DNA of 32,510 nucleotides from Candidatus Raymondbacteria bacterium RIFOXYA2_FULL_49_16 (GCA_001789205.1 MFYT01000077.1:1-32510); one strand, 5' to 3'. Positions 999 through 22,814 are shown, counted from the first letter of the stretch. The notes: generated by a model from the letters alone, not told the origin. Numbers and translations are program-made.

Positions 999-2537
999 TT
1001 ATTTTAGCAGTGTCATGGATTTTGAAAATACGCGGCCGCTTGTTTTTAAATACAGTACATACATGCCGCTGGGCAATCCTGAAGCGTTCCATATAACAGA
1101 ATTACGAATTATGAATTTTGAACTATTGATATTTGAAGATAAATCAGCTACCTCTTTGCCCCGTATATCGAATATCTTCAATTCAGGAGTTGTAATTTTT
1201 AATTTTGCATTTGTCCCGAGCCCTGCCGGAGGGTTTGTAATTGTTATTTTTACCATTGGATTGAACGGATTGGGACAGACGGAAAGAACGGGTGTTCCAT
1301 TGGTTTTTCTGGCCGCATTCTGTCCGGCCAAGGCAGCGGTTGTATCGATACGGAATACGTGGATGACCGGCTGCGGTTCGCCCGAGGTCTTGACCAGCGT
1401 TTGGGCGACATACAACAGGCCGCGCTGGCGGTCGTATGCCAGGCCTCCTGGCGAGAAATAATTATCCTCCATGTTAAGATTTCCGCCTCGGGGACCTAAT
1501 TTCTCACCGGTAAAACAGAGGTCCAGGTTTTTCCGGGCATACCACCGTATGTCCCACTCGTTCCTGGAGCCCTGAACAACCTCGGAGAGGTCGGTTGGAT
1601 CGTAAAAGAGAAGCGTGGGATACATGCCAGCGCCAAACGGCCCGCTGAAATAGCTGAAGTCAAGGCTGTAATTCTGTGTACAATACATGACGACCGCTGA
1701 CCGCTGGCCATAGGTCAGCCAGGCGCCAGCCTTATACCAGCTGCATACGGAAAACCCTTTATCGGATTTGCCGGTAAAATGCATCAGCGGTGTGCCGTCG
1801 AGTGTATCTCCGGCCGGAGGAGGATTGCCGTTTTCCCATGGCGCGCAGGCGAAAAGATTTGGTCCTTCGGCGCCCCAGTTGCGCATACGGCCGCACGCGA
1901 GGGTCTTTCCCGGGACATATTGGTCAGCCCAGTCCTTGGGTATTTCAAACATATAATGGCCAATGTCCCATTGCGAGTAGGTGCCCAGGCGCCAGAATCC
2001 CGCGGTATTGGGATTGGAAAGCGATACATCGAGCCAGGCCATATGCACCTGATTTGGCAGAGCGGCATAATCATTGCCAATATTCGCATATAGTTTTCCC
2101 GAACTCTGTTGCCCCTGGGCGGAAAGATATGCGAGGCCCCAAACACCCATTCTTTGATAATCCGGAAGCCCGGTGAATGGATCCGCAAAAGGCTGCACTG
2201 GAGACGTACGGGGGAGATCAGTATAACTTTTTGTGGCTGAAAAACCTGGAACAGGAATAGTCACTTCGGTTATATAATTGCCGGATGCATGGCCTGCACC
2301 GAACAATGAACCAGGGTATCCATCGTTCGTTCCACTTGGATCGCCATCTGGATAATACGCAAAAGCATCGCCGCCATACCCAAACCGGCCGTAGTCACCG
2401 ACCGAGGCCCCGGCGTTGAGCGTGAATGCTCCTTCGTAAATCAAATTTTCGGGATACAATGCATTGACACGGTCTTGCTGGGCAGACCCTGCCAAAGGAA
2501 ACAGCATCACTGCCAAGAGCAAGGATAGCAATCGCAT
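999..2537 (-). CDS. Exported protein of unknown function with T9SS sorting domain
   Basis: 512 residues. Residues 1-19 are a signal peptide (MRLLSLLLAVMLFPLAGSA, then QQ). The body (about 25-400) is rich in Trp, Tyr and Gly, with phrases such as GRFGYGGDAFAYYPDGD and a late GGLAYDRQRGLLYVAQ. That resembles a family of bacterial secreted proteins with propeller-like strands, but I do not recognise a defined enzyme. The C-terminal ~90 residues are a type A T9SS sorting domain: CPNPFNP, KIFDIRGKEV, WNASGLPSGMYVLYLK, ending KSMTLLK. Two AT-rich heptamer-repeat stretches are part of this domain (see repeats). The start has a GGGGGG-type ribosome site 4-9 bases upstream. It is the first gene after the 2613-2642 terminator and probably has its own promoter in 2538-2612. 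The product is probably anchored at the surface or released. Confidence 0.85.
   Translation of the reverse strand: MRLLSLLLAVMLFPLAGSAQQDRVNALYPENLIYEGAFTLNAGASVGDYGRFGYGGDAFAYYPDGDPSGTNDGYPGSLFGAGHASGNYITEVTIPVPGFSATKSYTDLPRTSPVQPFADPFTGLPDYQRMGVWGLAYLSAQGQQSSGKLYANIGNDYAALPNQVHMAWLDVSLSNPNTAGFWRLGTYSQWDIGHYMFEIPKDWADQYVPGKTLACGRMRNWGAEGPNLFACAPWENGNPPPAGDTLDGTPLMHFTGKSDKGFSVCSWYKAGAWLTYGQRSAVVMYCTQNYSLDFSYFSGPFGAGMYPTLLFYDPTDLSEVVQGSRNEWDIRWYARKNLDLCFTGEKLGPRGGNLNMEDNYFSPGGLAYDRQRGLLYVAQTLVKTSGEPQPVIHVFRIDTTAALAGQNAARKTNGTPVLSVCPNPFNPMVKITITNPPAGLGTNAKLKITTPELKIFDIRGKEVADLSSNINSSKFIIRNSVIWNASGLPSGMYVLYLKTSGRVFSKSMTLLK
1100..1214 (-). repeat. Two in-frame degenerate heptamer tracts in sorting domain
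   Basis: On the plus strand 1100-1134 divides into five 7-mers: AATTACG, AATTATG, AATTTTG, AACTATT, GATATTT. 1180-1207 divides into AATTCAG, GAGTTGT, AATTTTT, AATTTTG. They encode the SSKFIIRNS and KLKITTPELKI segments of the sorting domain of the 999-2537 protein. Seven is not a multiple of three, so three units give a seven-residue peptide period while the frame stays open. Confidence 0.65.
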
Positions 2538-2612
2538 GCGCCCCCCTTCTTTTTTTACTTATTTCACCAACAAGGCTTTGCTCAGTTCGTTATGCGCTTA
2601 ATAACAGCCTTT

Positions 2613-2642
2613 AAAAAATGGGGTTGATATGGTACAACCCCA
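2613..2642 (-). terminator. Rho-independent terminator after the alpha/beta hydrolase gene
   Basis: TGGGGTTG (2619-2626) and CAACCCCA (2635-2642) form a perfect 8-bp stem with an 8-base loop. On the minus strand the stem is followed at once by six T (2613-2618). It lies 53 bases past the stop of the 2695-4839 gene. It therefore ends the upstream two-gene transcript and separates it from the 999-2537 gene. Confidence 0.8.
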
Positions 2643-2694
2643 ACGAACTACAAACTAATTTTTTAGCAGCATCCGTCGCAAGCAGCTGCCGCCA

Positions 2695-4839
2695 TTATCG
2701 TGTAAGAACGATTTTATTTACCAATTGCCTGTTGCCGAGCCTGGCTTTGATTATATAGACGCCGCTTGGCTGGTTGGACGCGTCCCACAGTATTGAATTA
2801 CGGACTACGGATTTTGAATTACGGACGTGCGGTGAGAAATCCTTGACAAGTTCGCCTTTAAGATTAAAAACCTTTAATTCATTTATAATCTGCGATTCAT
2901 AATTCGTGATCTTTATTTCAGTCGTTGGATTGAACGGATTCGGGGAAACTGTGATGCACATATCATTGGTTTTTAATGATTGGGCCGCTACCTCAGAAAC
3001 AGGATCAACCGGGACCATGATAAAGCGGCTGCCGCCGGTGTTCTGGTCGCCTGATTTAATCTGAAAATTCCTGAATGTAATCAGATTAAAACTGTCTGCT
3101 GTAATTGTATCAATCTGAAACACGGTATTTGTATCATTCACAGCAGTGTTTTTAACAATATAATCCGCACCTTCGGTGACAACGAATTGCTGGAGCTTGC
3201 GGGGGGTTATGTCAGCTGTGTTGTCGCCGGTAAGCGAGGCTATGACAATCTCGTACCGGTTAATCTGGTCCACCTGGTTCTGGTAGTTGCCAACTTTATA
3301 ATACGGAGTGCTCCAGATGAGGTGTTTGTTGAAAATATAAAAGATGGAATCCGTAACATCTGGCAGCGGCAGAGCTGGATTGCCGGATACGTTTGAAAAA
3401 GCCAGGAAAGAATTGTTCTTATGTATGGTACTCAATTGCGGTTGGCCGCTCACGAGTCCGCCGCAGTCGTGGCCGGAAGCGCCTTGGCATCCGCCGTTCC
3501 AACCGCGCCGTGAGGCATTCAAATTTGTATAATAATTCCTGCCTTGCTGCGGCCAAGTCACACTGCCGTCTTTCCCTCCGCTGCAGAATGTTATCCATGG
3601 CAGTTCCATTCCTTCCATGGAAAGGACCATCTGTTCTACATTAAGGAATTGATGAAGGATCATCCCACCATATGCCTGCTCAAGCCTTTCGCTGCGCCAG
3701 CCTGTGAAATGGACCTTTATATCATCGTTGGTGTGCGATCCCCATCGCGCCTCGCATTGCCGCAGCCATGTCCAGGTTGTTTCCAGAAAATTCGTCGGCG
3801 GAACTTTGCCATCACCATAAGCGAAAAAATCAGGATAGTATTGCAAGAACAGCAATGTGCCTCCGCCGCCCATTGAACCGCCGGCAACATATATCTGGTT
3901 GGTGTCTATTCTATTGGCATAATATGGCTCTACCTGGATCATCCATTTCAGGAAATTCATTATCCGGGCCTGGACAAAATTAACAACAGGCCCCTGGTCT
4001 GATATTGGGCTCGAACCGGTTGGCGCGTATTTACTTGTGTCAAACTGATAGGTCTGGCTATAGCCGAACCACCAACTGCCTGTTTCGCACGCTTTTACTT
4101 CTATGCCGTCCGAATTCCACGCGGCATAATTCTGGGTATAGCGGATGGTGCCATCCATTCCTTCAATGGTCAGGCGAAGGTCGACCTTGTCAGAGGTAGT
4201 GGCATAGTTTTGTTTGACACCAACCCAGAATGGCCACGCATAGGTGCCGCTATATGTGGGGTTAAACGAATCAACGTCAGTATACAGCAGATAGAGACGC
4301 GCGCATTTTATCCCTGACTGGTATAAGAGCACTGGCGCTGCGTCTTGGACTGTTTCGGTAATAGCACCAATGGCATTGCCAGCGCCAATGGACTTGTCTT
4401 CAACGCCGCCAACCACGGCCGTGACAGCGTAATAATAGGTACCGGCAACATGTGTGGTGAAAACAGCCACGCCGGTCCCGGCTGGAATCTCCGTCACGTT
4501 GCCTGTTAAGGACGTATCGAGCGGTACAACGACATTCCTGCTGACCGAGCATGGCGGGGTCAGCAATTGCATGTCAGACCTGTCCGCATTGGTGGCAAGG
4601 TGCGCCAGGACCCTGTTGAACGAGGAGTTCGGGGCGACTTCATATCTTTTATTGGCCGTTGTCAGGTCGCCGGCTGTTATGGGCGCCGTGCTCCTGTAAA
4701 TAATATAATTTTGCCCGTTTGTCACTTCATCCCAGGTAAGAAAAACCTGGCCTGAACGAAAAAAGCCCGTCATATTGGTTGGGGTTGCGCCGAACAAAGA
4801 AGCTGATAAGGTCAAGGCAAATAATAGGACTCGTACCAT
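2695..4839 (-). CDS. Exported alpha/beta hydrolase (esterase/peptidase-like) with T9SS sorting domain
   Basis: 714 residues from the ATG at 4839, chosen because GGGGAGGG precedes it and a signal peptide (MVRVLLFALTLSASLFGA) starts there; a longer frame upstream lacks both. Residues about 20-130 look like a fibronectin-III-type domain (TWDEVTNGQNYIIYRS). The middle holds a serine-hydrolase core: nucleophile elbow GGSMGGGG (G-x-S-x-G), a later SGGKDGSVTWPQQG segment suitable for the acid residue, and GASGHDCGG suitable for the His. This is the layout of secreted prolyl-oligopeptidase/PHB-depolymerase-like esterases, but the substrate is unknown. The C-terminus is a T9SS type A domain (SPNPFNPTTEIKI ... 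WDASNQPSGVYIIKA ... NKIVLTR). It lies 32 bases downstream of the SGNH hydrolase gene, in the same transcript. Confidence 0.85.
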   Translation of the reverse strand: MVRVLLFALTLSASLFGATPTNMTGFFRSGQVFLTWDEVTNGQNYIIYRSTAPITAGDLTTANKRYEVAPNSSFNRVLAHLATNADRSDMQLLTPPCSVSRNVVVPLDTSLTGNVTEIPAGTGVAVFTTHVAGTYYYAVTAVVGGVEDKSIGAGNAIGAITETVQDAAPVLLYQSGIKCARLYLLYTDVDSFNPTYSGTYAWPFWVGVKQNYATTSDKVDLRLTIEGMDGTIRYTQNYAAWNSDGIEVKACETGSWWFGYSQTYQFDTSKYAPTGSSPISDQGPVVNFVQARIMNFLKWMIQVEPYYANRIDTNQIYVAGGSMGGGGTLLFLQYYPDFFAYGDGKVPPTNFLETTWTWLRQCEARWGSHTNDDIKVHFTGWRSERLEQAYGGMILHQFLNVEQMVLSMEGMELPWITFCSGGKDGSVTWPQQGRNYYTNLNASRRGWNGGCQGASGHDCGGLVSGQPQLSTIHKNNSFLAFSNVSGNPALPLPDVTDSIFYIFNKHLIWSTPYYKVGNYQNQVDQINRYEIVIASLTGDNTADITPRKLQQFVVTEGADYIVKNTAVNDTNTVFQIDTITADSFNLITFRNFQIKSGDQNTGGSRFIMVPVDPVSEVAAQSLKTNDMCITVSPNPFNPTTEIKITNYESQIINELKVFNLKGELVKDFSPHVRNSKSVVRNSILWDASNQPSGVYIIKARLGNRQLVNKIVLTR
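2796..2917 (-). repeat. Two in-frame degenerate heptamer tracts in sorting domain
   Basis: Plus-strand 2796-2830 reads AATTACG, GACTACG, GATTTTG, AATTACG, GACGTGC. 2876-2917 reads AATTCAT, TTATAAT, CTGCGAT, TCATAAT, TCGTGAT, CTTTATT. They encode VRNSKSVVRNS and KITNYESQIINELK of the 2695-4839 protein. These are the same two positions of the sorting domain as in the neighbouring genes. Confidence 0.7.
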
Positions 4840-4871
4840 GAAACCCTCCCCTTGTTGAGAATTAACGCCCC

Positions 4872-5942
4872 TTATTTTGTCAATAAAACTTTTTTCGCTA
4901 TGCGTGCGCCCCCGGCAGTCGCTTTGATTATGTAGACGCCGCTTGGCTGGTTGGAAGCGTCCCATACAAAAGAATTACGAATGTCCGGTGTCAAGCTCTT
5001 GACCAGTTTTCCAGAAATAGTATAAATGCCTAATTCGTAATCCGTAATTTGAAATCTATAATTTTCCAAAGTAATGCATGTCCGGGGGTTAAACGGATTG
5101 GGCGAGCACGTGATCTGGAACTGGCTTTTATCAGCTACAAAGCAAGTTGTTGTCTTTGTTGTATATTTATACGGAATATATTGATTCAATTCCGGCTTGT
5201 TAACGGTAACCCATGCCATGTGTTGCAGATATGCTTTTGTCGCGGAATCTATGGTGGCTCCGGTATAATAAGTGCCAAATGATGTCAACCCGGTCGGGTC
5301 TTCTCCAAAAAATGCCGCAAAGAAAACACACGCACCGAGATATCCGCCTTCAGTAGACTGATGATACCCATCGGTGTACCAGAGCGGAAAAGACAGATCT
5401 TCCTTGATGACCGTGTCAAAGGCGAATCCAACCGGCGAGACCAATGCCCCAAGAGAGGTCACTGCGTTCATATATATTTGGGATATGGTGTCCTGTCTTG
5501 ACGGAAACCAGACAAGATTGGTGGAATCATATCTGGGTTTTTGAGTGACATATGCCCATGTCATGTAAAAAACAGATTTTGCCCCTGCAGCGGTCACAAC
5601 CTGATTAAATGAATCAGCGTATAAACTGAATTTTGAATCTGAATAATCCACCTGATATCCCTGGAGAACCACATAATCGTAATTTCCTACGCGTATTTCA
5701 TGCAGTGTGGTGGTATCTGCCCATTGGCCTTCCAAGCGCGTACCCCCCTTGATTATTTCCTTTGTATACACATGGTAGCCTCTTTCCCTGGCAAAGCTAC
5801 GCACAAGTGTTGTGGGCAGCCGCAAGGAAAAACTGTTGCCAATAAACAGGATACGCGTGGAATCTTGGCATGGGGCAGGTGCGCATAGAAACAAAAGGAG
5901 CGCGATTAAAGCCGGAAAAAAGACAGACTGAGCGAATTTCAT
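4872..5942 (-). CDS. Exported SGNH/GDSL-type hydrolase (DUF4886-like) with T9SS sorting domain
   Basis: 356 residues. The signal peptide spans about 1-25 (MKFAQSVFFPALIALLLFLCAPAPC, then Q). RILFIGNSFSLRLP is an SGNH block I with the nucleophile Ser in GNSFS. VLQGYQVDYS and later WYTDGYHQSTEGGYLGACVFFAAFFGEDPTG carry the later blocks, including the D-x-x-H pair. This is the usual DUF4886-like layout of esterases that deacylate carbohydrates or lipids; the substrate is not evident. The C-terminal ~85 residues are a T9SS sorting domain (CSPNPFNPRTCITL ... ISGKLVKSL ... WDASNQPSGVYIIKA ... KKVLLTK). The domain is nearly identical in wording to that of the next gene, so the two probably share a recent origin. 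GGAGG sits 8 bases upstream of the ATG. It is the first gene of the minus-strand cluster. Confidence 0.85.
   Translation of the reverse strand: MKFAQSVFFPALIALLLFLCAPAPCQDSTRILFIGNSFSLRLPTTLVRSFARERGYHVYTKEIIKGGTRLEGQWADTTTLHEIRVGNYDYVVLQGYQVDYSDSKFSLYADSFNQVVTAAGAKSVFYMTWAYVTQKPRYDSTNLVWFPSRQDTISQIYMNAVTSLGALVSPVGFAFDTVIKEDLSFPLWYTDGYHQSTEGGYLGACVFFAAFFGEDPTGLTSFGTYYTGATIDSATKAYLQHMAWVTVNKPELNQYIPYKYTTKTTTCFVADKSQFQITCSPNPFNPRTCITLENYRFQITDYELGIYTISGKLVKSLTPDIRNSFVWDASNQPSGVYIIKATAGGARIAKKVLLTK
4973..5066 (-). repeat. In-frame degenerate heptamer tract in sorting domain
   Basis: Plus-strand 5032-5066 divides exactly into five 7-mers: AATTCGT, AATCCGT, AATTTGA, AATCTAT, AATTTTC. They encode LENYRFQITDYEL. 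A shorter relic (AATTACG, AATGTCC at 4973-4986) encodes IRNS. Both lie at the positions used in the two neighbouring sorting domains. Confidence 0.7.
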
Positions 5943-10226: not shown

Positions 10227-13200
10227 ATGAAGATAAAGATTGATTTATTAGTTTATACTGTTTTTTTAGTTACAGTATATTCATTTGCTGCCACTCAATG
10301 GATTCAGACCGATTGGTCAGGCGGTAACGGCCAAACAGCATGGACAAATCCAGCGAAATATTTATCAGACAATGGTAATGTTGAAATCCATAATCCATCT
10401 GGAGAAATAAGTATTCAGGTGCAAATTAATACAGGGGATGGTGCTGATGGCACTCTGACAGTCACTTCAAGCACGGGTACAAACTACACTTTTTCAACTG
10501 CCGCGAACTATTCGTTTTCCAATACAAATGCGATGGGAATAAGCAGCGGCAGCGCGAAATTGACCACCCTTTCGGCGCCCTTTGCGTCCAATCTACTATT
10601 GTGGATGGCCGCGGATTCCATTTCCGGGAAATCGGATGGGGATTCAGTGGATACGTGGAGAGACTTAAGCACGAGCGGAAACAATGCCACGCAAAGCACA
10701 AGCTCTAAAAGGCCGGTTTATAAAACCAATACGCTTAATGGAAAACCAGTCTTGCGGTTTAGTGGCGCCCAGGAACTATCCACCGCCACGGGCAATGCCT
10801 TGGGCGATTTTACTGTTTTTGTGGTTTTCAAAGCAACTGCGATCGGAGGAGGGTACGACCGGGTGCTTGATAAAGATTACGCCAACGGGTTCTGGCTTGG
10901 CAGAAACAGTTCCACGGTGAATTCTTTTGGCGGGGGAATAGAAGAAAGCGGTTCGCCTTTTGGCATTTTCGGGAGTTTTCCTGACAATAACTGGAATGTC
11001 CTTGGTTCAATACGGAGTGGAACCACCCATTACCTATATAATAACGGTTCCGCTCTGGCCAACAATACTGTTTCCGGCGTCACGACCAATACCGCGGTCT
11101 ATGGCATTGGCGGAAGAAACGCCAATTATTTTACCGGGGATATTGCCGAAATCCTGGTGTATGGCACGGCCCTTTCAGCTGAAGACCGCAAGGTCATAGA
11201 GGCCTATGTGGGGCAGAAATACAACCTTTCCATGCCACCCTATATCACCACCGATCCTACGGTCACTAACAATAGCGGGTATATTTTCACTTCAGCATTA
11301 TCGGCTTTTTCAGAAACCGCCACAAAGACAAATAGCGCGGTCCAATACATCCTAAGCAGCGACAATGGCAGTACATGGAAATATTGGACAGGCAGCGCTT
11401 GGGCTGTTTCCAATGGTACCTACAGCCAAAGCAACCCCGCTTCCATTATCAATACTAATATCAGCACTCTGGCAAGCAGCGGCACTTTGAAATTTAAGGC
11501 GTTTCTGCATTCTAATGATGGTAACAATACTCCCTATTTGGACAATATTAATATTGGCGGGGCATCGGTCACAGTCAACGAATATACCTATCTTACTGCG
11601 GCAACAACCAACGCCGGAGCCACCGCACTATCAGTTAATAACGGCGTCAATTTCAGCGACGGTGATGAAATCCTGATTATCCAGATGCAGCACGCCACAG
11701 ACGCTGGTACATACGAATTCAGGACCATCGCATCAGGGGGCGGTACAAATACTTTGACGCTGGATTCTGTTTTGGCGAACAGCTATTATTCCGGGACATT
11801 GAACGTTGCCTCTGCCTCTGCCGCCCAAGTAGTACGGGTGCCTAACTTTACTACTGTATCCATCCAAAGCGGGGCATCAATCATTTGCCCTGCATGGGAC
11901 GGGTATACCGGCGGCATTATCGCTTTCCGCGTCCGGGCCACGCTTACCGTTGAAGGATCAATTAGCGCGAATGCGTGCGGTTTTCGGGGCGGCCGCTATG
12001 GCGGGACCGACGGCTACAAGGGAGAGAGCTATCCTGGGGGCAATCCCACTGCAATTATTGGCGGGTATAATAATGGATGCGCTAATTCCGGAAGGCAGCC
12101 AAACGGGGGCGCGGGCGGCACGTATGTAAATGGCGGCGGCGGCAGTTACGGGACCGCTGGAACCGATGGAGAGCCATTTACCACATGCGTTGGGGTCGCT
12201 GGATATACCTATGGAACAGCTGATTTGTCCACTATTTTCCTGGGGAGCGGCGGCGCGGGCGGCCATCCCAACAGCGGTGAACCGCAGGGTGGAAATGGGG
12301 GTGGCTTAATTTGGATAACCGGGACAGCCATAAACGTTACCGGAACAGTTTCAGCCGACGGCCAGAATGCGTATGACGCGATCCCGCCCGCTACCGGCCA
12401 ATGGGGCGCTGGCGGCGGATCCGGTGGTTCGATCTTTTTACGCGGTTCAGGTTTGACATTGGGTACTGGTCTTGTTACCGCCGCGGGCGGGGCCCAATAT
12501 AATGGACAAAATGCGGCAGGTGACGGCGGCAACGGCGGCAGCGGCAGGATCCGGGTCGAGTATGTCACTCTCTCCGGCACTGCCAATCCAAGCGCGTCCG
12601 CCAGCCTGATAACCATTGTTAATTCAACCAATCTAACCTCTTCGATATACGATATGGGCGCTAATGCCAGCGGGCCGTATTTTATTAATTGGAACGAAAC
12701 GTTGCATGGCCAGACAATACAGGTGAAAGTAAGGACAGACAATAATTCTTCAATGTCCGGGGCCATGGCTTTTAGTTCCGCTGATAATGCGGTAAACGGC
12801 GGCAGCGTTGGATCGCTTAATTCCGTGGTTCGCAGACAGCGTTATGTGCAATATCAGGCCATTTTAAACACTTCGGACGGCATGAATGTGCCCAGTTTTC
12901 AGGATATTACCCTTGAAATGAACAGCCGTCCAGATAGCTTTGATTTGACCAGTCCGGTACACGGTTCTGAACTGGCTACGGTGCTGCCAGGTTTGGATTG
13001 GCAGGATTCCTATGACTCCAACACTGTATCGGGTGATGCGGTAAGTTATATCCTGGAAATAGACGATGATTCCAATTTTGCCAGTATCAATGTACGCAAG
13101 ACTGGTTTAAGTCTCAGCAGTTACACCCTGACCGGCGGCGAGGCCTTGACGGACAATGTGACCTATTACTGGCGAGTGTTTGCCAAGGACAACTATCCCG

Positions 13201-16200
13201 ATTCCACCCGCAGCGCTTCAGTGCGCCATTTCTTTACCGATGCCGGGGGAAACCAAGCCCCCACCCTTTCCACGCCTTTGGGTCCGGTAAACAATACCGA
13301 ACTCTCCGGCGCCGGTTCCATTACCTGGACGCGCAATGATGTTGATCCGGGAGATACGCTTTTATATACTATACAAATAGATAATAATATCTCCTTCGCT
13401 TCGCCGGAGATCAGTCAAGCCAGCATCACCGGCGTCAGCAAGGCGCTGAATACATTCACCAATTACGCTAATTTGCAGGACAACTCCATATATTATTGGA
13501 TCATCCAAGCCAAGGACCCGAGCAACGCTGTTTCCGGGTATACCCCGCTGGGAGGGCAATATTTTTTCTTTAATAAACAGAACGACGCCCCTTTGGTCTG
13601 CACATCCTTGAGCCCGGCAAGCGGTGAAGCGAGCGGCAATACGTATTTGAAATGGCGTTCCGCTGATCCTGACTCGCAGGGACTTTCCCGGGACACGGTC
13701 AAGGCCACTTTGGAGATTTCCGCGAATTCGTCTTTCAGCATCATAGTGAGCACTACTACCGGGATAGCGCAGGACAGCATTCAATTGAGCACGGTGACTA
13801 ATTATTCCAGCCTGAATGACAATACCGGTTATTATTGGCGGTTGATCTCGATCGATAATCACGGTTTGATTGGAGATACCACTGACGGGACCGCCTATTT
13901 TTATCTGAACAAGACAAACCAGATCCCCGCCGCGCTTGTTTTGGCCTTTCCTGCCATTCGGGATACTGTATTGACCCCTGACACGCTGCGGTGGCATACG
14001 GCAATTGACCCGGATTCTTTCGCCATTTTCACCTATAATATCAGAATCTATAAGAAAAGCGGCGATGTTCTTTTATACAATAAATATTGGATTAGTGACA
14101 CTTTTACCGTGATAACCATGGTGGATTCCTTCCGTGCATATGCTTCCAGAGATAGTTTTTATTGGCAGGTACGGGCCCGCGATCAGTACGCGGCCACTTC
14201 CGGCTGGAGCGGCGGGGCAAGCCAGGTGTTCTTTTTCCGTTCCACCCAAGCCGTGGCGCCGTCCCTTTCTAGCCCGGTTGGCGGCGTAAACGCGTATCCG
14301 ACATCGTTGCTCCAGTGGACTGCCGCTCTGGATATTGACAAAGGACCTGAAGATAGCCTGTTGTATACACTGCAAATTGATTCATCCGGCGATTTCTCCA
14401 CAATCGTCAGCGCCTCCCAGAACATCAACGGGCTGAATAGAACCCTTTCCACAGTGGCCAGTTACGCCAATCTGGTACAGGACAAGAAGTATTACTGGCG
14501 GGTGTTTGCGGTGGATAACCACGCTGAAAAGGGCGATACCAGCGCATCTGACAGTTTCTTTTTTACCGCGTCTAACGACGCGCCGCCAACGCCGGCCAAC
14601 TTGACTCCCGTCCTGGGGTCCTCGCTGGGCGCCTCGGGAACTCTTTCATGGAACGCCTGTGCGGACCCTGAAGGTGATACGGTCTTTTACCAGTTTCAAA
14701 TGTCCGCCAGCGCTGGATTTACGTCCCTTTTCCAGAACGATTCCGGCATCACAAGCACCAGCCGTACCATAAAGCTGATGAGCGCGTATCCGGTCTTGCA
14801 GGACGGGGCCGTGTATTATTGGCGCGTGCGCGCCCAAGATAATAATTTCGCGTTTTCAAGCTATTCCAGCACCAACACCTTTGTCTTTGCCAGTACAAAA
14901 CCGACCGTTGCAACCGACCTTTCACCAGCCGGAGACGAGGAAGTTTCCGGCGCCGATAGCCTGAAATGGACGGCAGGGGCTGACCCTGATACGCTGGACA
15001 CGTTTACTATAAACCTTGAAGTAGACGACAATGCTGATTTCAGTTCACTGACATTGAGTCAACACACTATCGCATCCAGCGCGACGGGCGTGCGTCTTTC
15101 CTCGCTGAGCAGCTACAACAACCTACAGGACAATACTGAGTATTACTGGCGGGTCTACGAGATAGACACCCATGGAAAGCATTCAGATACGACCGGCAAC
15201 GCCAGGTTTTATTTCAACAAAGCCAATAATGCGCCCGTGTCCGCGGATTTGGCAAGTCCTGTTTCCCATGAGTCAATCGATGGAGGAGACACCCTGAAAT
15301 GGGGCCCTGCCACTGATCCGGACCGGAATGACACGGTACGATATATTATCCAATTGACTACAGGCTCTTTTACGGCGCCGGCGGTCCAGGATACCACGAC
15401 TGATACCTTGTGCCGGATGGACGGTCTGAATGGATTTACGGATTTGAACGACAACCAGTTTTATTCCTGGCGGATTGTTGGTCTTGATAATCACGGCTTG
15501 ACGGGCGGCATTTCTGACACGGGTGTGTTGTATCTGAATAAAATAAACGACCTTCCGCTTACGCCGTCATCGCTGCTTCCGGCACCGGGAAGCCAGCGCA
15601 ATCCAAGCCAGGGTTTCAGTTGGACAGGAAGCGATCCTGACTCAGGGGATGTCCTGCATTACGGGTTTCAGTTGTCGGCCAGCAGCGGTTTCGTCCAAGT
15701 CATCTTCGCGAAGACCGGAGGCGAAAATTTTCTAAATACCACCATTGCCCTGAACGCCTTTCCTTCGTACCATGACAGCTTGCGGAAGGACAGCGCATAT
15801 TTTTGGCGGGTGAAGGCATATGATAATCACGGTGATAGCTCGGCGTGGAGCGCCCCTGTCAGTTTTACCTATGATCCCGCGTACTTTGAGATCGACACCG
15901 GCGCTGGTAATCCGCATGATACCATCACCTCCTCCGCCATTGCCACGGACAAGGTCGCACTCTCTATCAACGTCAAAGCGCATGGGTGGGAGAATAGCAT
16001 TATCAAACGCATTACGGTCAGCGCGCTGGGTATGGCCCATGAGGTAACGGACATTTCCTCTGTGTTCTTGTACCGGGACGCGGACCGCAACGGCAGTGTG
16101 AACATAGGTACGGACCAAGCTCTGGGATTTGGTAATTATAGTGTTGACAACGGCGCCCTTTCCTTTGACATCAGCCGCACCATTGTTGCCGGAGATTCAG

Positions 16201-19200
16201 AGCAATATTTAGTCTCGTATAACCTCAATGGCAATGCCTCTGACGGCGAGACATTTACCGCGCGGATCTCTTCAGGCGCGGCTATTAGCGCCGTGGGGGA
16301 AACCAGCAATGACACCTTGGTCTCTTCTCAGGCGTCGTTGCCGCGAGGGACCATCAGGCTGACCACGCCGCGTACGTTTGAAATCATCAGCCAGCATGCC
16401 AATGCCGAGACTGCGGGCGTGGGTTTTTCACTCACTCTCAGGGCGCGGGACAATGCGGGCCATATTGCCACTACGTATACGGGAAATCATACCATCAGTT
16501 TCAGCACAACGGCGTCAGCCGCGCCTCTGGGCCAAAGCCCTGCGCTGCCCGTATCCCAGGCCGTCATTTTCACGGCCGGGATAGGGACCACGACCGTTGC
16601 TTTTAAAATGGTGAAAGCAAGCGCGTCGTTCACCCTTTCAGCCTCTGAAACCACCGGGCCTTTGGGAACAACGGACAGTATTGATATCTATCCTGCGGCT
16701 TTGTCCTTTGTCCAGGCGCAGACAATGCCTGGTTCCGGCAGCGCATTAACCACAGCGGATCTTACCGCTGACGACAGCCTTATGGTATATGCGGCCGGGT
16801 ACGACAGCATGGGTAACTTCAAGCAAAACGTCAGCGTCACGTGGCAGGGAACAGGTGTGGTAACGGCGTTCAGCCAGATGAACGATACGGCCACTGTTTT
16901 TCGGGCCGTTGCCGCGGGAACTGGCTCTATAATCGCGGACCATGAAACAGCGCGTGACGACACCAGCGGGACCGTGATAGTGACCGCTGGCGCGTTGCAT
17001 CATATCGGTATTCGCGACTCGGCAGGCAATGCCGGCTTGTTGGTTTCAGCTGTGGGCATGACGACAACAGACACCTTGACGGTATATGCGGCAGGGTATG
17101 ACGCTGACAGCAATTACCTGTCAGACACGCCGGTCTCCTGGAGCGCTACCGGAATTCTTACACCCTGGCTTTCCGCTGCATACGGCGCATTTACTTCATT
17201 GATACCGCAGAACAGCGCTTCAGGACGCATCATTGCCAGCCATGCCTTGGCCTTTGATGACAGCACAGGTGTGATAGCAATAACCGCCCCCATCTCAAAT
17301 ATCAAAATCCGGAACGCGGCAGGCGGCGGAGGCAGCGCGATCGATTCATTGACAGTAAGCGCAGATGATTCAGCTTCCGTATATTGCGCGGGATACGACG
17401 GCGCGGGTCATTATATCGACGACGTTACGGTTTTTTGGAATGGCGCGGGCACAGCGGCCGGCAGGTTGGTCTCAGCGACCGGCAGTGGCACCTTATTCCG
17501 GCCCAAGACGGCCGGGGCCGGACTGATAGTTGCCCAGCATTTAAGCGGCTATCACGATACCGTGCGGACAACAGTGGTCCCCGGCAGTCTTTCATATGTG
17601 GCAATCAGGGACTCCGCAGGCAACCAGGGGAGCGTCATCACGGCCAAAGCCATCACCTCTGTCGAAACGCTTACCGTATGGGCAGCGGGCTACGATTCTG
17701 ACAGCAATTATATTTCCGATACGCCGGTCGCCTGGAGCGCCACTGGCGCACTGAGCGGGTGGCTATCCGGCGTAACGGGCGCAAGCGTGTCCCTGCAGCC
17801 CCGGAGCAGCGGAAGCGGGATAATAGTGGCGGATCATGCGACAGCGCGTGACGACAGCACTGGGACCATCACCGTGACGGCCAACCTGGTTTTGCTGAAA
17901 ATCCGTACAGCCCCCAATGGCAATGGCGCGGAGTGTGGCGACACGGCCATTACCGCGGATGACAGCTTGGTCTTGTACGCTGCGGGATATGACGGACAAG
18001 GGGCGTACATCGCGGATTGCATTGTAAACTGGGGTCTGACAGGACGGTTGGCGCATCTTTCAAGCACCTTTGGTTCAACTACCGTTTTTTACGGGGATTC
18101 GCTTGGCAGCGGCCGGGTCTATGTCCGGCATGCGAGTGCTGGGAGCGACAGCACCGGGGACATAACTGTCAGCGCAGGAGCGCCTGCGTATATAAGCATC
18201 AGTCCGGCGGGTGATACGGCGATCACTACAGACAACACCATGCAGTTCAGCACAATGGTACGCGACGCCGACCGGAATGCGCTGACCGGCGTCACTGTGG
18301 CTTATTCCTCGTTGGACACGCTGGGATCGATCTCTGGTACGGGCTTGTATAATCCAGCGAGGACCGGGACAGGACGGGTACGGGTCACTATGGACAGCTT
18401 GGCGGACACGTCAGGGTATATTGTGATTTCCGCGGGCGCGCTGGTCAGGGTGGAAATCTCGCCTGCCAATCCGGTGATTACAGCGGATAGTTCTTTACAA
18501 TTTATACTTTCAGGATTTGACGCTGACGGCAACGCAGTTTCCCTGACAGGCGTTTCCTGGAAATTGGGCGCTGCCATGGGAAGCATCGCTGGCAATACCG
18601 GTCTGTATTCCCCTGCAGCCGCGGGAACTGTTTTAGTCATAGGGACACATGGGTTCTTGTCCGATACGGCGCACCTGACGGTCAACCCCGGCGAAGCGGC
18701 AACATTGACAATCCGTACAGCTCCCGATAACACCGGGATGCAGGTCAATAATTATGATATCGCCATCGGTGATACGGCTGTCTTCTTTGCGGCAGGCTTT
18801 GACTGGCACGGCAATTTTACCGGCAATGAAACCGTGTCCTGGACCGGTACGGCAATGGTAAGTTCCGCTATACTTCCCGGTACGGGCGATTCAGTGAAAA
18901 TAAGTTCGCTGAGCAGCGGGACTGGCGTTCTCATCGCCTCCAACGGAAGCGCCACAGACAGCACAGGTCTCATTACCTTTTTACAGGGCGGCTTGGACAG
19001 CCTGGTCATTACGCCCTATGCCTGTACTGTTAAAGCGGACAGTATGTTGCAGTACAGCGTGACCGGACTTGATTCCGCCGGCAGCCCCGCGGCAGCAGGG
19101 ACAATTTTCTGGAAAGTCCTCGGGGATATCGGCAGCATATCAGCCACGGGCCTGTTCAATCCAGGCCGCCAGGGAAAGGGCAGGATAGTAGCCACCTCCT

Positions 19201-22200
19201 CCCTGGGCAATGTCAGTGACACCACCGACAGTATCATAGTGGTACCAGGTGCGTTGTACCGCCTGTCGTTGGCCCCCGAAAGCCTTATCCTGCGGATCGA
19301 TACTGTTTATAATTTGATATGCAGCGGCTTTGACGTGGACAGCAATTCTGTGACAATAGACACTGTTCCCACGTATTATGTCAGCAATAGCATTGGCACG
19401 GCCAACAGCTCCGGCCTTTTTACGCCTTCCCGCGTGGACACGGGTAATGTCCTGGCCCGGGTCAGAGGAGCAGCGTCAAATCCAATCCGCGTGCAGGTGC
19501 GTCCTGGGCCTTTGGCCATGGTGCGCGTACGCGACAGCGCGAACGGCACGGGCGGTTTCATGGGCAGCTGGATCATTGCAAAAGATGACACTCTCCGCTT
19601 GTTCGCCGCTGGATATGACGCGGATACCAATTATATCAGCGACACAACAGTGATGTGGATTCTGACCGGAGCGCTTAACGGCAGAGCGGCAAGCACGAAC
19701 GGGCCTAGCATAACCATTGTGCCGGACAGCATAGGCGTGGGCGGCATAACCGTTGTACACAACGTTGTGCAGGGCCAGAGCATCACGGGCGTGGAAATAG
19801 TGGATGGCGACCTTCAGTATTTGACGCTTTCTCCGTTGTTCGATACTATTGCCGCGGATACGCAGATACAATTCTCCGTTGCTGGCAAAGACGCGCACAA
19901 CCAGACAACCAGCGCTGGTACGATTACCTGGAGTCTTTTGGCCCCGGATTCCATAGGCTGTCTTGATCCGGCCAATGGATTGTTTGTACCAAAGCGGCCG
20001 GGCAAAGCGGTGGTCAAGGCCTCCTCTTCGCTCAATACCATGGCCATATTCTCCGATACCTTGCATATTGTGGCCGGCAGGCTGATACGCCTGGTCATCA
20101 AACCTGATTCTGGTAACATGAACGCTGATACAAACCTGCGGTTTGATGCCATGGGCTATGATGCGGACAGCAATGTCCTTGATCTAAGCCGGAGTATGGC
20201 AACGTGGTCTTTGAGCGATACCCTGGGAACCATTGACAGCGCTGGTAATTATGATCCGCAACGGCCAGGTACGGTACAGGTTGTGTATACAATCGGCGCT
20301 GTGTCCGATACAACCGGTGAATTCACTATTTCAACCGGCAGACTTAATCGTGTGGTCCTGAAACCGGACACGGCTGTGGTGACAGCCGACTCCAGCCTTG
20401 CGCTTTTAGCATATGGCATGGACGCCGATAGCAACCAGAAAACCATTGCAAGTAGCGTCTTCCTCTTGGCCGATTCCTTGGGAAGCATTGATTCAAACGG
20501 CGTGCTGACGCTGCACCGCGCAGGGAAGGGCCTTGTGGTGCTCGCCTATGGGGATTTCCGTGATACCCTGCACCTTACCGTAACAGCGGGAAGGCCGGAT
20601 TCACTTATTGTCCAGCTACCCAGCGTACGGGTCATTTCACTCAAAGACTCATTAAAAATAAATGCGCTTCTTTTTGACGCACAGGGGAACCTAATGCCCC
20701 CCGGCGCCAGCATAGAATGGCATGTATTCCCCGTTGCGGTGGCGCATATCGACAGTTCGGGGACCTTGTATCCTGATTCGGCGGGCGCATGCCGTATCAT
20801 CGCGCGCGCCGGTGCATTGGCCGATACCAGCGATACTATCGAAATTACGGTTCCCCTGCTTGATTCAGGGACTATTGCGGTTACCCAGTATCTTTCCATC
20901 GAACTGCCCGTGGTTTCAGGAGGAGCCTATGTGAAATCCGGGGAAAATCCCGATATGGGCGATTACCAGGACCTTCCCGGCTTCAATCAATTAAGCCCGG
21001 TACTCGATTTCAGCGGGTCAGCGCCCCGCGCATTCACGCAGCCTGTCATCTATCGTTTTGATCTCGACAGTCTTGACCTGGGTCAGGCCTTCGCGGATAC
21101 GGAGGCGGTCAGGATATACCGTTTCAATGCGGTGCGAAGGGTCTGGGAGGTTGTGTTTGGAACGGCTCCGGATTCCCTGCACATCCTCTCTTTTGCAAGT
21201 GAAACGCTTTCAACCATTGTCGTGGGTGTGGATACGGCAGCTCCAGCCCTGAACGATTCGACAAACGCCGCCGCCCCGCATGAAACAGGGAGCGTCCTTG
21301 CCATTTCCGGACGGGTGACCGACAACATAGCGAATGTAAAAACGGCTATCTATTTCCGCAGGGGCGATGCGGCTGGGTTTGATTCCGTGGAGGTCTATCC
21401 TGATACGGCGGGACAGTATGCCTATACGCTGTCTGGCGACAATCTGACCAGCGCAGGCCTGGAATATTTCATCGTGTGCGACGATGGCGTCAACCGGACG
21501 ATCAGCGCGCGGGAGAACGTGGCAGTGCGGGTGCGGAATACCGTCATGCGCGACGTGTTCCCCGCTGATGAATACCGGTTGTTCAGTCTGCCGTCAGAGC
21601 CGGACAATGCTTGGTGCGGCAGGGTCCTTGGCAGCCTTGGGCCCTATGCAGCGAATTGGCGCGCCTATTCATGGGAACATGGCGCGTATGTGGAGTATGG
21701 CACAGGAAATTTTGATTCACTCAGGACCGGCAGCGCATATTGGTTGAGGACAAAAAACCAAGGTGCGCGTATCGCTGTTGATAGCGGTACAGTCTGTCCG
21801 GTGACCCAATGCTTTAGCATACCGTTGGCACCTGGAGCATGGACCGCCATAGGCAATCCCTTCTCTTTTCCAGTGACTTGGTCATTAATCGAAGATTCAA
21901 CCGGGACCGCTGGCCCGCTTGTCGGTCCGTATGCATACGCTGACGGGAATTGGGTGTCTCCCGAGCAAGTCACGGTACTTGAGCCGTGGCAGGGGTATTA
22001 TGTTAAAAACACGGGCACGCAGACAATTACCCTGAAGGTCCCGCCAAACAGCGGCAGCGCAACGGCGAAAAGCCACGCTGTTCGCGGCAAGAATAGCGTC
22101 ATGCTGGAATGGCAAGTTTCGGGCGACAATTGGCAAGACAAGGGCAACCTGTTTGGTTTTGGGCCGGAGAAGGAATATCCCAAACCCCCGGCCATGGTCG

Positions 22201-22814
22201 ACGCCATGGTCCGTACCGTGTTTGGCAAAGGGCTTATGTGCGCTTTTAGCGAGCCAAAACACGGCGGTCATGCCTGGACAGCATCCATATCGGGTCTTGC
22301 CGAGGGCCAGGAGTATGTGTGCACTGTCAATGGCCTCGGCCTTCTTCCCGATTCATTGGGGGTTTGTGTTACTGATTATACGCGGGGTCTTAGGGCCGAT
22401 CTGAAGAGCGCTGGCGGGTATTCGTTTACCGGCCTGAAGAACGAGAAGGCCCGGACAGTGGAGATACTTGTTGGGACCAGCGCGTATATTGCTTCGCATA
22501 CGGCCGGGCTCAAGGATGTTCCGGCAACACTCATGGTATGGCAGAACCATCCCAATCCGTTCAACCCCGCGACCGTTATAGAATATGCGGTACCCGTTTC
22601 GGCGAAGACCCTTCCTGTATCACTGCGCGTGTTTGACGCAAAGGGTTCGTGCGTTGCTGTTCTTGTTGACGAGCGCAAGGAGAGCGGTTATTACCGCGCT
22701 GTGTGGGACAGCAGGGACGCAAAAGGCCGTATGCTTGCAAGCGGCCTCTATTTTTACCGCGTGTCCGCGGGCAGCAAGGTCAGTACCGTTAAAAAGATGT
22801 TATTGGTCAAATGA
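10227..22814 (+). CDS. Giant multi-domain exported repeat protein with T9SS sorting domain
   Basis: 4195 residues, more than a third of the window. Order of parts: signal peptide 1-21; LamG/concanavalin-like domain about 122-336 (WMAADSISG ... DIAEILVYGTALSAEDR); Gly-rich beta region about 450-795 with AgmC-like GGNGG turns; nine ~108-residue Fn3-like repeats 901-1881 (YYWRV.A.DN, DPD); a region with an EF-hand-like loop (DADRNGSVNIGTD, about 1950); fifteen Ig-like repeats about 2158-3543; a C-terminal module with YRLFSLPSEP and GAWTAIGNPF; and a T9SS domain about 4105-4195 (NHPNPFNP ... SGLYFYRV ... KKMLLVK). There is no catalytic motif. Inference: a surface fibre or adhesin, possibly glycan-binding. 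GAGG at 10215 sets the start. The first ~80 codons are AT-rich, unlike the rest. The stop overlaps the next frame. The product should cross the outer membrane through T9SS. Confidence 0.9.
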   Translation: MKIKIDLLVYTVFLVTVYSFAATQWIQTDWSGGNGQTAWTNPAKYLSDNGNVEIHNPSGEISIQVQINTGDGADGTLTVTSSTGTNYTFSTAANYSFSNTNAMGISSGSAKLTTLSAPFASNLLLWMAADSISGKSDGDSVDTWRDLSTSGNNATQSTSSKRPVYKTNTLNGKPVLRFSGAQELSTATGNALGDFTVFVVFKATAIGGGYDRVLDKDYANGFWLGRNSSTVNSFGGGIEESGSPFGIFGSFPDNNWNVLGSIRSGTTHYLYNNGSALANNTVSGVTTNTAVYGIGGRNANYFTGDIAEILVYGTALSAEDRKVIEAYVGQKYNLSMPPYITTDPTVTNNSGYIFTSALSAFSETATKTNSAVQYILSSDNGSTWKYWTGSAWAVSNGTYSQSNPASIINTNISTLASSGTLKFKAFLHSNDGNNTPYLDNINIGGASVTVNEYTYLTAATTNAGATALSVNNGVNFSDGDEILIIQMQHATDAGTYEFRTIASGGGTNTLTLDSVLANSYYSGTLNVASASAAQVVRVPNFTTVSIQSGASIICPAWDGYTGGIIAFRVRATLTVEGSISANACGFRGGRYGGTDGYKGESYPGGNPTAIIGGYNNGCANSGRQPNGGAGGTYVNGGGGSYGTAGTDGEPFTTCVGVAGYTYGTADLSTIFLGSGGAGGHPNSGEPQGGNGGGLIWITGTAINVTGTVSADGQNAYDAIPPATGQWGAGGGSGGSIFLRGSGLTLGTGLVTAAGGAQYNGQNAAGDGGNGGSGRIRVEYVTLSGTANPSASASLITIVNSTNLTSSIYDMGANASGPYFINWNETLHGQTIQVKVRTDNNSSMSGAMAFSSADNAVNGGSVGSLNSVVRRQRYVQYQAILNTSDGMNVPSFQDITLEMNSRPDSFDLTSPVHGSELATVLPGLDWQDSYDSNTVSGDAVSYILEIDDDSNFASINVRKTGLSLSSYTLTGGEALTDNVTYYWRVFAKDNYPDSTRSASVRHFFTDAGGNQAPTLSTPLGPVNNTELSGAGSITWTRNDVDPGDTLLYTIQIDNNISFASPEISQASITGVSKALNTFTNYANLQDNSIYYWIIQAKDPSNAVSGYTPLGGQYFFFNKQNDAPLVCTSLSPASGEASGNTYLKWRSADPDSQGLSRDTVKATLEISANSSFSIIVSTTTGIAQDSIQLSTVTNYSSLNDNTGYYWRLISIDNHGLIGDTTDGTAYFYLNKTNQIPAALVLAFPAIRDTVLTPDTLRWHTAIDPDSFAIFTYNIRIYKKSGDVLLYNKYWISDTFTVITMVDSFRAYASRDSFYWQVRARDQYAATSGWSGGASQVFFFRSTQAVAPSLSSPVGGVNAYPTSLLQWTAALDIDKGPEDSLLYTLQIDSSGDFSTIVSASQNINGLNRTLSTVASYANLVQDKKYYWRVFAVDNHAEKGDTSASDSFFFTASNDAPPTPANLTPVLGSSLGASGTLSWNACADPEGDTVFYQFQMSASAGFTSLFQNDSGITSTSRTIKLMSAYPVLQDGAVYYWRVRAQDNNFAFSSYSSTNTFVFASTKPTVATDLSPAGDEEVSGADSLKWTAGADPDTLDTFTINLEVDDNADFSSLTLSQHTIASSATGVRLSSLSSYNNLQDNTEYYWRVYEIDTHGKHSDTTGNARFYFNKANNAPVSADLASPVSHESIDGGDTLKWGPATDPDRNDTVRYIIQLTTGSFTAPAVQDTTTDTLCRMDGLNGFTDLNDNQFYSWRIVGLDNHGLTGGISDTGVLYLNKINDLPLTPSSLLPAPGSQRNPSQGFSWTGSDPDSGDVLHYGFQLSASSGFVQVIFAKTGGENFLNTTIALNAFPSYHDSLRKDSAYFWRVKAYDNHGDSSAWSAPVSFTYDPAYFEIDTGAGNPHDTITSSAIATDKVALSINVKAHGWENSIIKRITVSALGMAHEVTDISSVFLYRDADRNGSVNIGTDQALGFGNYSVDNGALSFDISRTIVAGDSEQYLVSYNLNGNASDGETFTARISSGAAISAVGETSNDTLVSSQASLPRGTIRLTTPRTFEIISQHANAETAGVGFSLTLRARDNAGHIATTYTGNHTISFSTTASAAPLGQSPALPVSQAVIFTAGIGTTTVAFKMVKASASFTLSASETTGPLGTTDSIDIYPAALSFVQAQTMPGSGSALTTADLTADDSLMVYAAGYDSMGNFKQNVSVTWQGTGVVTAFSQMNDTATVFRAVAAGTGSIIADHETARDDTSGTVIVTAGALHHIGIRDSAGNAGLLVSAVGMTTTDTLTVYAAGYDADSNYLSDTPVSWSATGILTPWLSAAYGAFTSLIPQNSASGRIIASHALAFDDSTGVIAITAPISNIKIRNAAGGGGSAIDSLTVSADDSASVYCAGYDGAGHYIDDVTVFWNGAGTAAGRLVSATGSGTLFRPKTAGAGLIVAQHLSGYHDTVRTTVVPGSLSYVAIRDSAGNQGSVITAKAITSVETLTVWAAGYDSDSNYISDTPVAWSATGALSGWLSGVTGASVSLQPRSSGSGIIVADHATARDDSTGTITVTANLVLLKIRTAPNGNGAECGDTAITADDSLVLYAAGYDGQGAYIADCIVNWGLTGRLAHLSSTFGSTTVFYGDSLGSGRVYVRHASAGSDSTGDITVSAGAPAYISISPAGDTAITTDNTMQFSTMVRDADRNALTGVTVAYSSLDTLGSISGTGLYNPARTGTGRVRVTMDSLADTSGYIVISAGALVRVEISPANPVITADSSLQFILSGFDADGNAVSLTGVSWKLGAAMGSIAGNTGLYSPAAAGTVLVIGTHGFLSDTAHLTVNPGEAATLTIRTAPDNTGMQVNNYDIAIGDTAVFFAAGFDWHGNFTGNETVSWTGTAMVSSAILPGTGDSVKISSLSSGTGVLIASNGSATDSTGLITFLQGGLDSLVITPYACTVKADSMLQYSVTGLDSAGSPAAAGTIFWKVLGDIGSISATGLFNPGRQGKGRIVATSSLGNVSDTTDSIIVVPGALYRLSLAPESLILRIDTVYNLICSGFDVDSNSVTIDTVPTYYVSNSIGTANSSGLFTPSRVDTGNVLARVRGAASNPIRVQVRPGPLAMVRVRDSANGTGGFMGSWIIAKDDTLRLFAAGYDADTNYISDTTVMWILTGALNGRAASTNGPSITIVPDSIGVGGITVVHNVVQGQSITGVEIVDGDLQYLTLSPLFDTIAADTQIQFSVAGKDAHNQTTSAGTITWSLLAPDSIGCLDPANGLFVPKRPGKAVVKASSSLNTMAIFSDTLHIVAGRLIRLVIKPDSGNMNADTNLRFDAMGYDADSNVLDLSRSMATWSLSDTLGTIDSAGNYDPQRPGTVQVVYTIGAVSDTTGEFTISTGRLNRVVLKPDTAVVTADSSLALLAYGMDADSNQKTIASSVFLLADSLGSIDSNGVLTLHRAGKGLVVLAYGDFRDTLHLTVTAGRPDSLIVQLPSVRVISLKDSLKINALLFDAQGNLMPPGASIEWHVFPVAVAHIDSSGTLYPDSAGACRIIARAGALADTSDTIEITVPLLDSGTIAVTQYLSIELPVVSGGAYVKSGENPDMGDYQDLPGFNQLSPVLDFSGSAPRAFTQPVIYRFDLDSLDLGQAFADTEAVRIYRFNAVRRVWEVVFGTAPDSLHILSFASETLSTIVVGVDTAAPALNDSTNAAAPHETGSVLAISGRVTDNIANVKTAIYFRRGDAAGFDSVEVYPDTAGQYAYTLSGDNLTSAGLEYFIVCDDGVNRTISARENVAVRVRNTVMRDVFPADEYRLFSLPSEPDNAWCGRVLGSLGPYAANWRAYSWEHGAYVEYGTGNFDSLRTGSAYWLRTKNQGARIAVDSGTVCPVTQCFSIPLAPGAWTAIGNPFSFPVTWSLIEDSTGTAGPLVGPYAYADGNWVSPEQVTVLEPWQGYYVKNTGTQTITLKVPPNSGSATAKSHAVRGKNSVMLEWQVSGDNWQDKGNLFGFGPEKEYPKPPAMVDAMVRTVFGKGLMCAFSEPKHGGHAWTASISGLAEGQEYVCTVNGLGLLPDSLGVCVTDYTRGLRADLKSAGGYSFTGLKNEKARTVEILVGTSAYIASHTAGLKDVPATLMVWQNHPNPFNPATVIEYAVPVSAKTLPVSLRVFDAKGSCVAVLVDERKESGYYRAVWDSRDAKGRMLASGLYFYRVSAGSKVSTVKKMLLVK
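12927..15875 (+). repeat. Nine Fn3-like coding repeats of about 108 codons
   Basis: Units begin near 12927, 13262, 13588, 13921, 14256, 14581, 14899, 15232 and 15551. Each has APxxxxxLxPxxGxxxxxxxxLxW near its start, a DPD or DPDSxD acidic turn, a strand like YTIQIDxxxxF, and YYWRVxAxDNHG near the end. They have diverged at DNA level, so this is an old array rather than a recent expansion. Confidence 0.8.
16698..20855 (+). repeat. Fifteen Ig-like (BIG-type) coding repeats of two length classes
   Basis: Units start near 16698, 16993, 17287, 17587, 17884, 18181, 18442, 18691, 18988, 19249, 19507, 19807, 20077, 20338 and 20590. A long class (~99 residues: IRDSAGN, VYAAGYD, VSWSATG) and a short class (~86 residues: ISPA, ITADSSLQF, W.L.D.LGSI...GLY.P.R.G) alternate in the order L5 S2 L1 S2 L1 S4. 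Most carry a G-(Y/F)-D-x-D-x-N acidic loop. Confidence 0.75.

Follow-up and report, generated by a model that had tools for sequence, protein, structure and literature searches.

How does a repeat whose unit is not divisible by three come to lie within coding sequence, and how does it come to occupy the same places in the export signals of several proteins? The stretch of DNA analysed here (the window: contig 77, 32,510 bp, one of the 112 contigs that make up a 5.43 Mb genome) raises both questions. An earlier note on this DNA claimed that, in three neighbouring genes, two fixed positions of the C-terminal T9SS sorting domain (CTD) are built from degenerate AATTnnn heptamers, and offered repeated insertion or gene conversion of the domain as explanations.

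Sorting domains and heptamers of the window

All three genes pass the curated Pfam and NCBIfam cut-offs for a T9SS type A sorting domain at the protein C-terminus (Table 1), and the open reading frames (ORFs), sorting domains and peptides attributed to them (SKFIIRNS in gene 1, NYESQIIN in gene 2, ITDYEL in gene 3) stand in the sequence as described. The end of the gene 2 ORF would be 4965 if an upstream ATG were used. Elsewhere in the window, a 4195-residue ORF (10227–22814) carries at its end a FlgD_ig/T9SS-like domain, which is free of arrays, as had been said of it.

Table 1. Features of the window discussed in the text, with positions counted from its first base.
Feature	Position	Strand	Basis
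Gene 1, predicted secreted protein with C-terminal T9SS type A sorting domain	999..2537	-	PF18962, 28.0 bits (cut-off 27); TIGR04183, 25.4 (cut-off 23)
Gene 1, sorting domain	1002..1274	-	Profile match (C77:1002-1274)
Gene 1, loop 2 array, three units, + strand AATTACG AATTATG AATTTTG (coding SKFIIRNS)	1100..1120	-	Tandem Repeats Finder; sequence
Gene 1, loop 1, AATT units at 1194, 1201 and 1239	1194..1245	-	Sequence
Gene 1, loop 1 extra insert CCTCCGGCAGGGCTCGGGACAA / CCTYCGRCARRGCTCGGGACAA (PPAGLGTNA)	1211..1232	-	Pattern search
Gene 2, esterase/prolyl-oligopeptidase-like passenger with sorting domain	2695..4839	-	PF18962, 33.3 (cut-off 27); TIGR04183, 31.3 (cut-off 23)
Gene 2, sorting domain, both arrays in inter-strand loops	2698..2946	-	Profile match and beta-sandwich model
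Gene 2, loop 2 array, four degenerate units (RNSKSVVRNS)	2796..2823	-	Sequence; no significance taken alone
Gene 2, loop 1 array, degenerate (ITNYESQIIN)	2876..2911	-	Sequence
Gene 3, DUF4886 passenger with sorting domain	4872..5942	-	PF18962, 31.6 (cut-off 27); TIGR04183, 29.9 (cut-off 23)
Gene 3, sorting domain	4875..5105	-	Profile match
Gene 3, loop 2, one unit (IRNS), 21 bp shorter than in genes 1 and 2	4973..4983	-	Sequence; loop lengths
Gene 3, loop 1 array, five units (NYRFQITDYEL)	5032..5066	-	Tandem Repeats Finder; sequence
Giant protein, C-terminal FlgD_ig/T9SS-like domain, array-free (contrast)	22544..22814	+	Profile searches; sequence inspection

The exact division of three stretches into five units each held for one of them: positions 5032–5066 (AATTCGT, AATCCGT, AATTTGA, AATCTAT, AATTTTC) give five fair units, whereas 1100–1134 (AATTACG, AATTATG, AATTTTG, AACTATT, GATATTT) give three good and two poor units, and 2796–2830 (AATTACG, GACTACG, GATTTTG, AATTACG, GACGTGC) four fair units and a last that is not one. 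Similarly, of the two positions said to be filled in all three genes, loop 2 of gene 1 and loop 1 of gene 3 are clear, but the arrays of gene 2 are degenerate and loop 2 of gene 3 holds a single unit.

Tandem Repeats Finder matched 1099–1126 (period 7) and 5031–5064 (period 14) and left 2796–2830 in gene 2 unreported. Under synonymous resampling, in which each codon was redrawn among its synonyms, the best 28-nt lag-7 identity was reached by 5 of 2,000 resamplings for gene 1 (unusual), by 71 of 2,000 for gene 3 (borderline) and by 377 of 2,000 for gene 2 (not unusual). By this comparison, gene 1 is the one convincing case when the window is judged by itself.

The heptamers as a DNA repeat

Candidate sorting domains number about 430–550 in the 5.4 Mb genome and take up at most roughly 2.5% of its bases. 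A pattern search of the genome found (AATTnnn)4 at 12 places per strand and (AATTnnn)3 at 31, with 0 matches to the reversed pattern used as a control. These 31 places merge to 19 arrays, 16 of them in CTDs (13 genes; binomial 2e-23 if CTDs make up 2.5% of the genome). The other three lie in an intergenic stretch beside metK (C64:61522), in the linker of a PreT/GltD-like oxidoreductase (C64:123705), where the array is in frame and relatives have unrelated linkers, and in another gene. About 18 CTDs carry arrays, many of them attached to unrelated passengers, so the phenomenon is not confined to three neighbouring genes; C79:2575 and C36:10988, where AATT pairs occur by chance, were excluded from the carriers. 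Several CTD candidates lie <500 bp from contig ends (for example C5:80, C9:93, C14:128, C79:115 and C83:296), and repeats there may break the assembly.

Across 160 CTDs, AATT pairs at lag 7 numbered 48 against 7.2 ± 2.6 expected from synonymous resampling (maximum 19 among 1,000), and pairs at lag 14 numbered 35 against 5.4; lags 6 and 8 showed no comparable excess in these CTDs, and the 7-bp excess was absent from 280 kb of background stretches of the genome. Because the lag-7 pairs so exceed what synonymous resampling yields, the heptamers are a DNA repeat and are not peptide-driven, which agrees with the earlier note, as does the existence of intergenic copies. Their head-to-tail 7-bp unit beyond chance, together with the extragenic copy beside metK, places them with SSR/STRR-type repeats, the variation in unit number being that seen between paralogous loops in one genome of the family.

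Translation of all 64 possible units accounts for the form of the encoded peptides. An AATTnnn array reads N-x-x-[FL]-x-I-x in any frame and on either strand: in every frame because the period, 7, is not divisible by three, and on both strands because AATT is self-complementary. The unit AATTACG gives NYELRIT, which is stop-free, and AATTCGT gives NS*FVIR; loop 2 therefore needs other units in one phase. In the phase where a final T would create TAA, 0 of 21 units have one, compared with 16 of 56 elsewhere (P = 0.004). This beta-strand-like reading probably explains why the repeat is tolerated in coding sequence: AATT core and period of 7 amount to a built-in beta-strand-like code, and the case shows how a repeat with a unit not divisible by three can still enter a gene. 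It also calls for caution, since a NYELRIT-like peptide in an FCB protein may reflect repeat DNA rather than a motif.

Two loops of the sorting domain

Loop 1 precedes the strand LKIFNIRGK and loop 2 precedes WDAS. Units in loop 1 are always of the AATTACG type on the coding strand (35:0 against the reversed orientation), and those in loop 2 are always the inverse (0:21). The earlier note had missed this fixed inverted orientation, as well as a GC palindrome located in these loops and the recurrence of the arrays in other phyla.

Loop lengths in carriers are quantised. Loop 2 is mainly 16, 23, 26 or 33 residues long (two lengths, misread by the motif, were assigned by eye as 23 and 33) and loop 1 mainly 20 or 29, with steps of +7 (three units), +9 and +10 residues. 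In the window, loop 2 has 23 residues in genes 1 and 2 and 16 in gene 3, a gap of three heptamers; three units make 21 bp, and the proposal that changes by three keep the frame fits these lengths. Palindrome-free loop 1 measures 20 residues in carriers against a median of 19 in ordinary CTDs, and the arrays have therefore taken the place of loop sequence as much as they have added to it. Such countable changes can be followed between strains.

The palindrome, 27–30 bp long (CCCGCTTCGC...GCGAGGCGAGCG), recurs almost unchanged in about ten loops whose CTDs have otherwise diverged. It sits in the same two loops as the arrays, in constant orientation relative to the heptamers, adds 9 or 10 residues in frame and folds at −17 to −20 kcal/mol. 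Relatives outside CTDs (CTCGCTCGCCTCGC...GCGAAGCGGGC) occur at C3:414, C9:145921, C29:16775, C42:52920 and 62593, C61:5016 and C93:4073; some share longer flanks and thus point to a broader family of repeats in the genome. The additional insert in loop 1 of gene 1, CCTYCGRCARRGCTCGGGACAA, has its only other exact-pattern copy in a CTD (C40:8774-8795), with two weak matches elsewhere.

A structural model of the gene 2 domain (pLDDT 81) places both arrays between strands. Its best PDB match is 8glk_D, a T9SS NucA substrate complex (E 4.5e-3, TM 0.62–0.68; no match fell under E 0.001), and the CTDs of RgpB (5ag8) and mirolase (8qb1) also match; the domain is accordingly modelled with the Ig-like beta-sandwich fold of solved T9SS CTDs. 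By comparison with RgpB, in our own mapping, loop 1 is s2-s3 and loop 2 is s4-s5, and both lie away from the C-terminal hairpin that has been proposed as the T9SS recognition signal (PMC4804311). Within CTDs, what separates the inverted arrays is the domain's own sequence, and inspection by eye revealed no target-site duplication of the kind expected of a MITE.

Origin and spread of the arrays

In the only genome of the same order that was searched, 452 CTD candidates were found, with one lag-7 pair in the best 30 and (AATTnnn)4 absent. The pattern (AATTnnn)4 is present in 28 of 61 genomes of a phylum set (our own included) and in 11 of 30 named FCB genomes, with control matches mostly none; Calditrichaceae MAG_33 is the richest, having 308 per strand in 6 Mb (control 0). 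Among the loci read in other genomes, most arrays are intergenic and the prevailing unit varies by genome; inverted pairs lie 19–84 bp apart in several genomes, and inverted pairs number 17 in total against 11 direct ones. In-frame arrays were found in CTD loop 2 and in linkers directly before the CTD in a Cloacimonadota MAG, in a CTD of a Melioribacter-like MAG (THNYQLSIINYQLPSGVY) and in CTD loop 1 of a Calditrichaeota MAG. As these use different units in three other lineages, sorting domains have captured arrays more than once, a natural repeated experiment on which T9SS signal loops tolerate insertion. In-frame arrays also occur in other coding settings: an E2 dihydrolipoyl acyltransferase-like gene has three AATT arrays in interdomain linkers (G080:C140:141300-142900, 398-1008), and a transporter-like gene has three in a loop, where they encode a NSELGILNSEL-type peptide run (G011:C21:44100-45800, 755-901).

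Codon usage bears on how the arrays came to be shared within our genome. Where carriers have identical residues, they share the codon at a rate of 0.76 in loop 1 and 0.58 in loop 2; the rate is 0.42 in the inter-loop strand, 0.44 in the WDAS-PSGVY flank and 0.41 in the tail, and 0.33–0.40 in other CTDs. Codon identity is also raised N-terminally in carriers (0.54 against 0.41; as high in 0 of 300 random sets), and masked-core identity is somewhat higher among them (0.54 against 0.41), a likeness that makes some shared ancestry likely.

The strongest rival is whole-domain duplication or gene conversion, by which one array-bearing CTD would have been copied onto many passengers, arrays included. 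It would account for that core identity and for the orientation fixed in both loops; in addition, with loops included, the nearest neighbour is also array-labelled for 18 of 20 labelled CTDs (random 2.3). Synonymous sites tell against it: identity between the two arrays is near background (0.42 against 0.38, a value reached by 19 of 300 random sets), as is that of the tail (reached by 48 of 300). A quick loop-masked tree on few columns likewise groups no carrier clade (16 changes against 17.3 when shuffled), and a well-supported branch of it joins a carrier with its array-free neighbour gene. Old domains that hold similar array DNA make a recent conversion of the whole domain unlikely, although domain conversion was one of the two routes first suggested for this locus, and insertion or copying limited to the array is favoured.

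Much less probable is the idea that the inverted arrays, together with the palindrome, are maintained because they form an mRNA or DNA hairpin controlling the expression of exported proteins. The two arrays are indeed mutually inverted, the palindromes do fold and relatives have closely spaced inverted pairs, mostly intergenic. Against this, carrier CTDs fold with energies only slightly below those of others relative to synonymous resampling (mean z −1.1 against −0.5), most CTDs do without arrays, and pairs elsewhere are of mixed orientation. Hardly credible is a beta-sandwich preference for N-Y-E-L-R-I-type peptides from which the 7-bp period would follow: the peptides are beta-like and occupy structurally equivalent loops, but the period vanishes on synonymous resampling, copies exist between genes, and in 80 CTDs of named FCB genomes (retrieved with a single CTD as query) the peptides were missing, bar one Cloacimonadota array, so that the comparison proposed beforehand as a refutation did not turn up the same peptides with other codons.

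Taken as a whole, the explanation we consider probable is that the AATTnnn family entered, or was copied between, the two CTD loops after the domains had diverged, and was tolerated as beta-like peptide. The heptamers belong to this family, mostly intergenic in other FCB genomes, whose arrays would have reached the two type A loops by insertion or array-limited copying. Site s2-s3 would take up coding-strand AATTACG, giving a NYELRIT-type peptide, and site s4-s5 the inverted form, giving a RNSKFVIRNS-type one. A loop of the Ig-like sandwich could accept an alternating beta-like heptapeptide, stop-making units and phases being absent; units would then be gained and lost in threes (7 residues), and a REP-like GC palindrome has come to lie within the arrays of these loops (adding 9 or 10 residues). 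The effect on export may be near-neutral, because the C-terminal s6-s7 hairpin is spared.

The constant orientation in each loop is unlike fully independent random insertion and suggests either an array-bearing ancestor with local homogenisation or templated inverted copying; together with the modest core likeness, it leaves room for an old array-bearing ancestor that was refreshed locally. Two further candidates were rejected. Templating of the loop 2 array by loop 1 of the same gene disagrees with the unit orders (by eye, in three CTDs), and a mobile cassette of loop 1, beta2 and loop 2, although protein identity in the middle is 0.57 against 0.34, finds no support at synonymous sites. A bolder extension of the favoured explanation, which we regard as doubtful at best, makes AATTnnn an actively copying family that forms inverted self-copies within ~100 bp by strand switching and that, with the palindrome, would serve FCB bacteria as a generator of module-by-module variation (7, 9 or 10 residues) on the surface of the export signal, a slow contingency system for sorting domains.

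Intergenic heptamers, coding palindromes of Rickettsia and in-gene repeats of Borgs are already known, and AATTnnn arrays in sorting domains are a variant on these; among the best matches listed, a literature search gave no account of AATTnnn arrays or of repeats in T9SS sorting domains. The heptamer TAACTGA is intergenic in Beggiatoaceae, Cyanobacteria and some Bacteroidetes (PMC4679880), G-rich heptamers occur in Xanthomonas and Nostoc (PMC4692102), and three tandem heptanucleotides of Calothrix are mentioned in a citation within the latter source. AATTnnn resembles these in its 7-bp unit, its direct arrays and its mostly intergenic location, and reversed TAACTGA reads LSVISYQ, also predicted as beta; unlike them, it has a self-complementary core, often forms inverted pairs, and its coding copies are concentrated in CTD loops and not avoided. 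Borg repeats, too, are tandem DNA inside genes, often for exported proteins, and make new peptide, but their units are all divisible by three and their product is mostly disordered (PMC9879509), whereas the 7-bp unit rotates the frame and its product is beta-like.

The GC palindrome recalls Rickettsia palindromic elements, which a review (PMC10969869), after Ogata et al. (2000, 2002), describes as small in-frame inserts that are tolerated in protein genes of many unrelated kinds. The likeness is one of behaviour: our palindrome is near-identical, in frame and in several genes, as Rickettsia-type elements are, and tolerated. Those elements are ~150 bp long, compared with arrays of 7-bp units and a 27–30 bp palindrome here, concentrated in two loops of one export-signal domain. 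In size (20–40 bp) and in having several copies per genome, the palindrome also resembles repetitive extragenic palindromes (REP; PMC3733652), from which it differs in that about ten copies lie inside coding loops, within heptamers.
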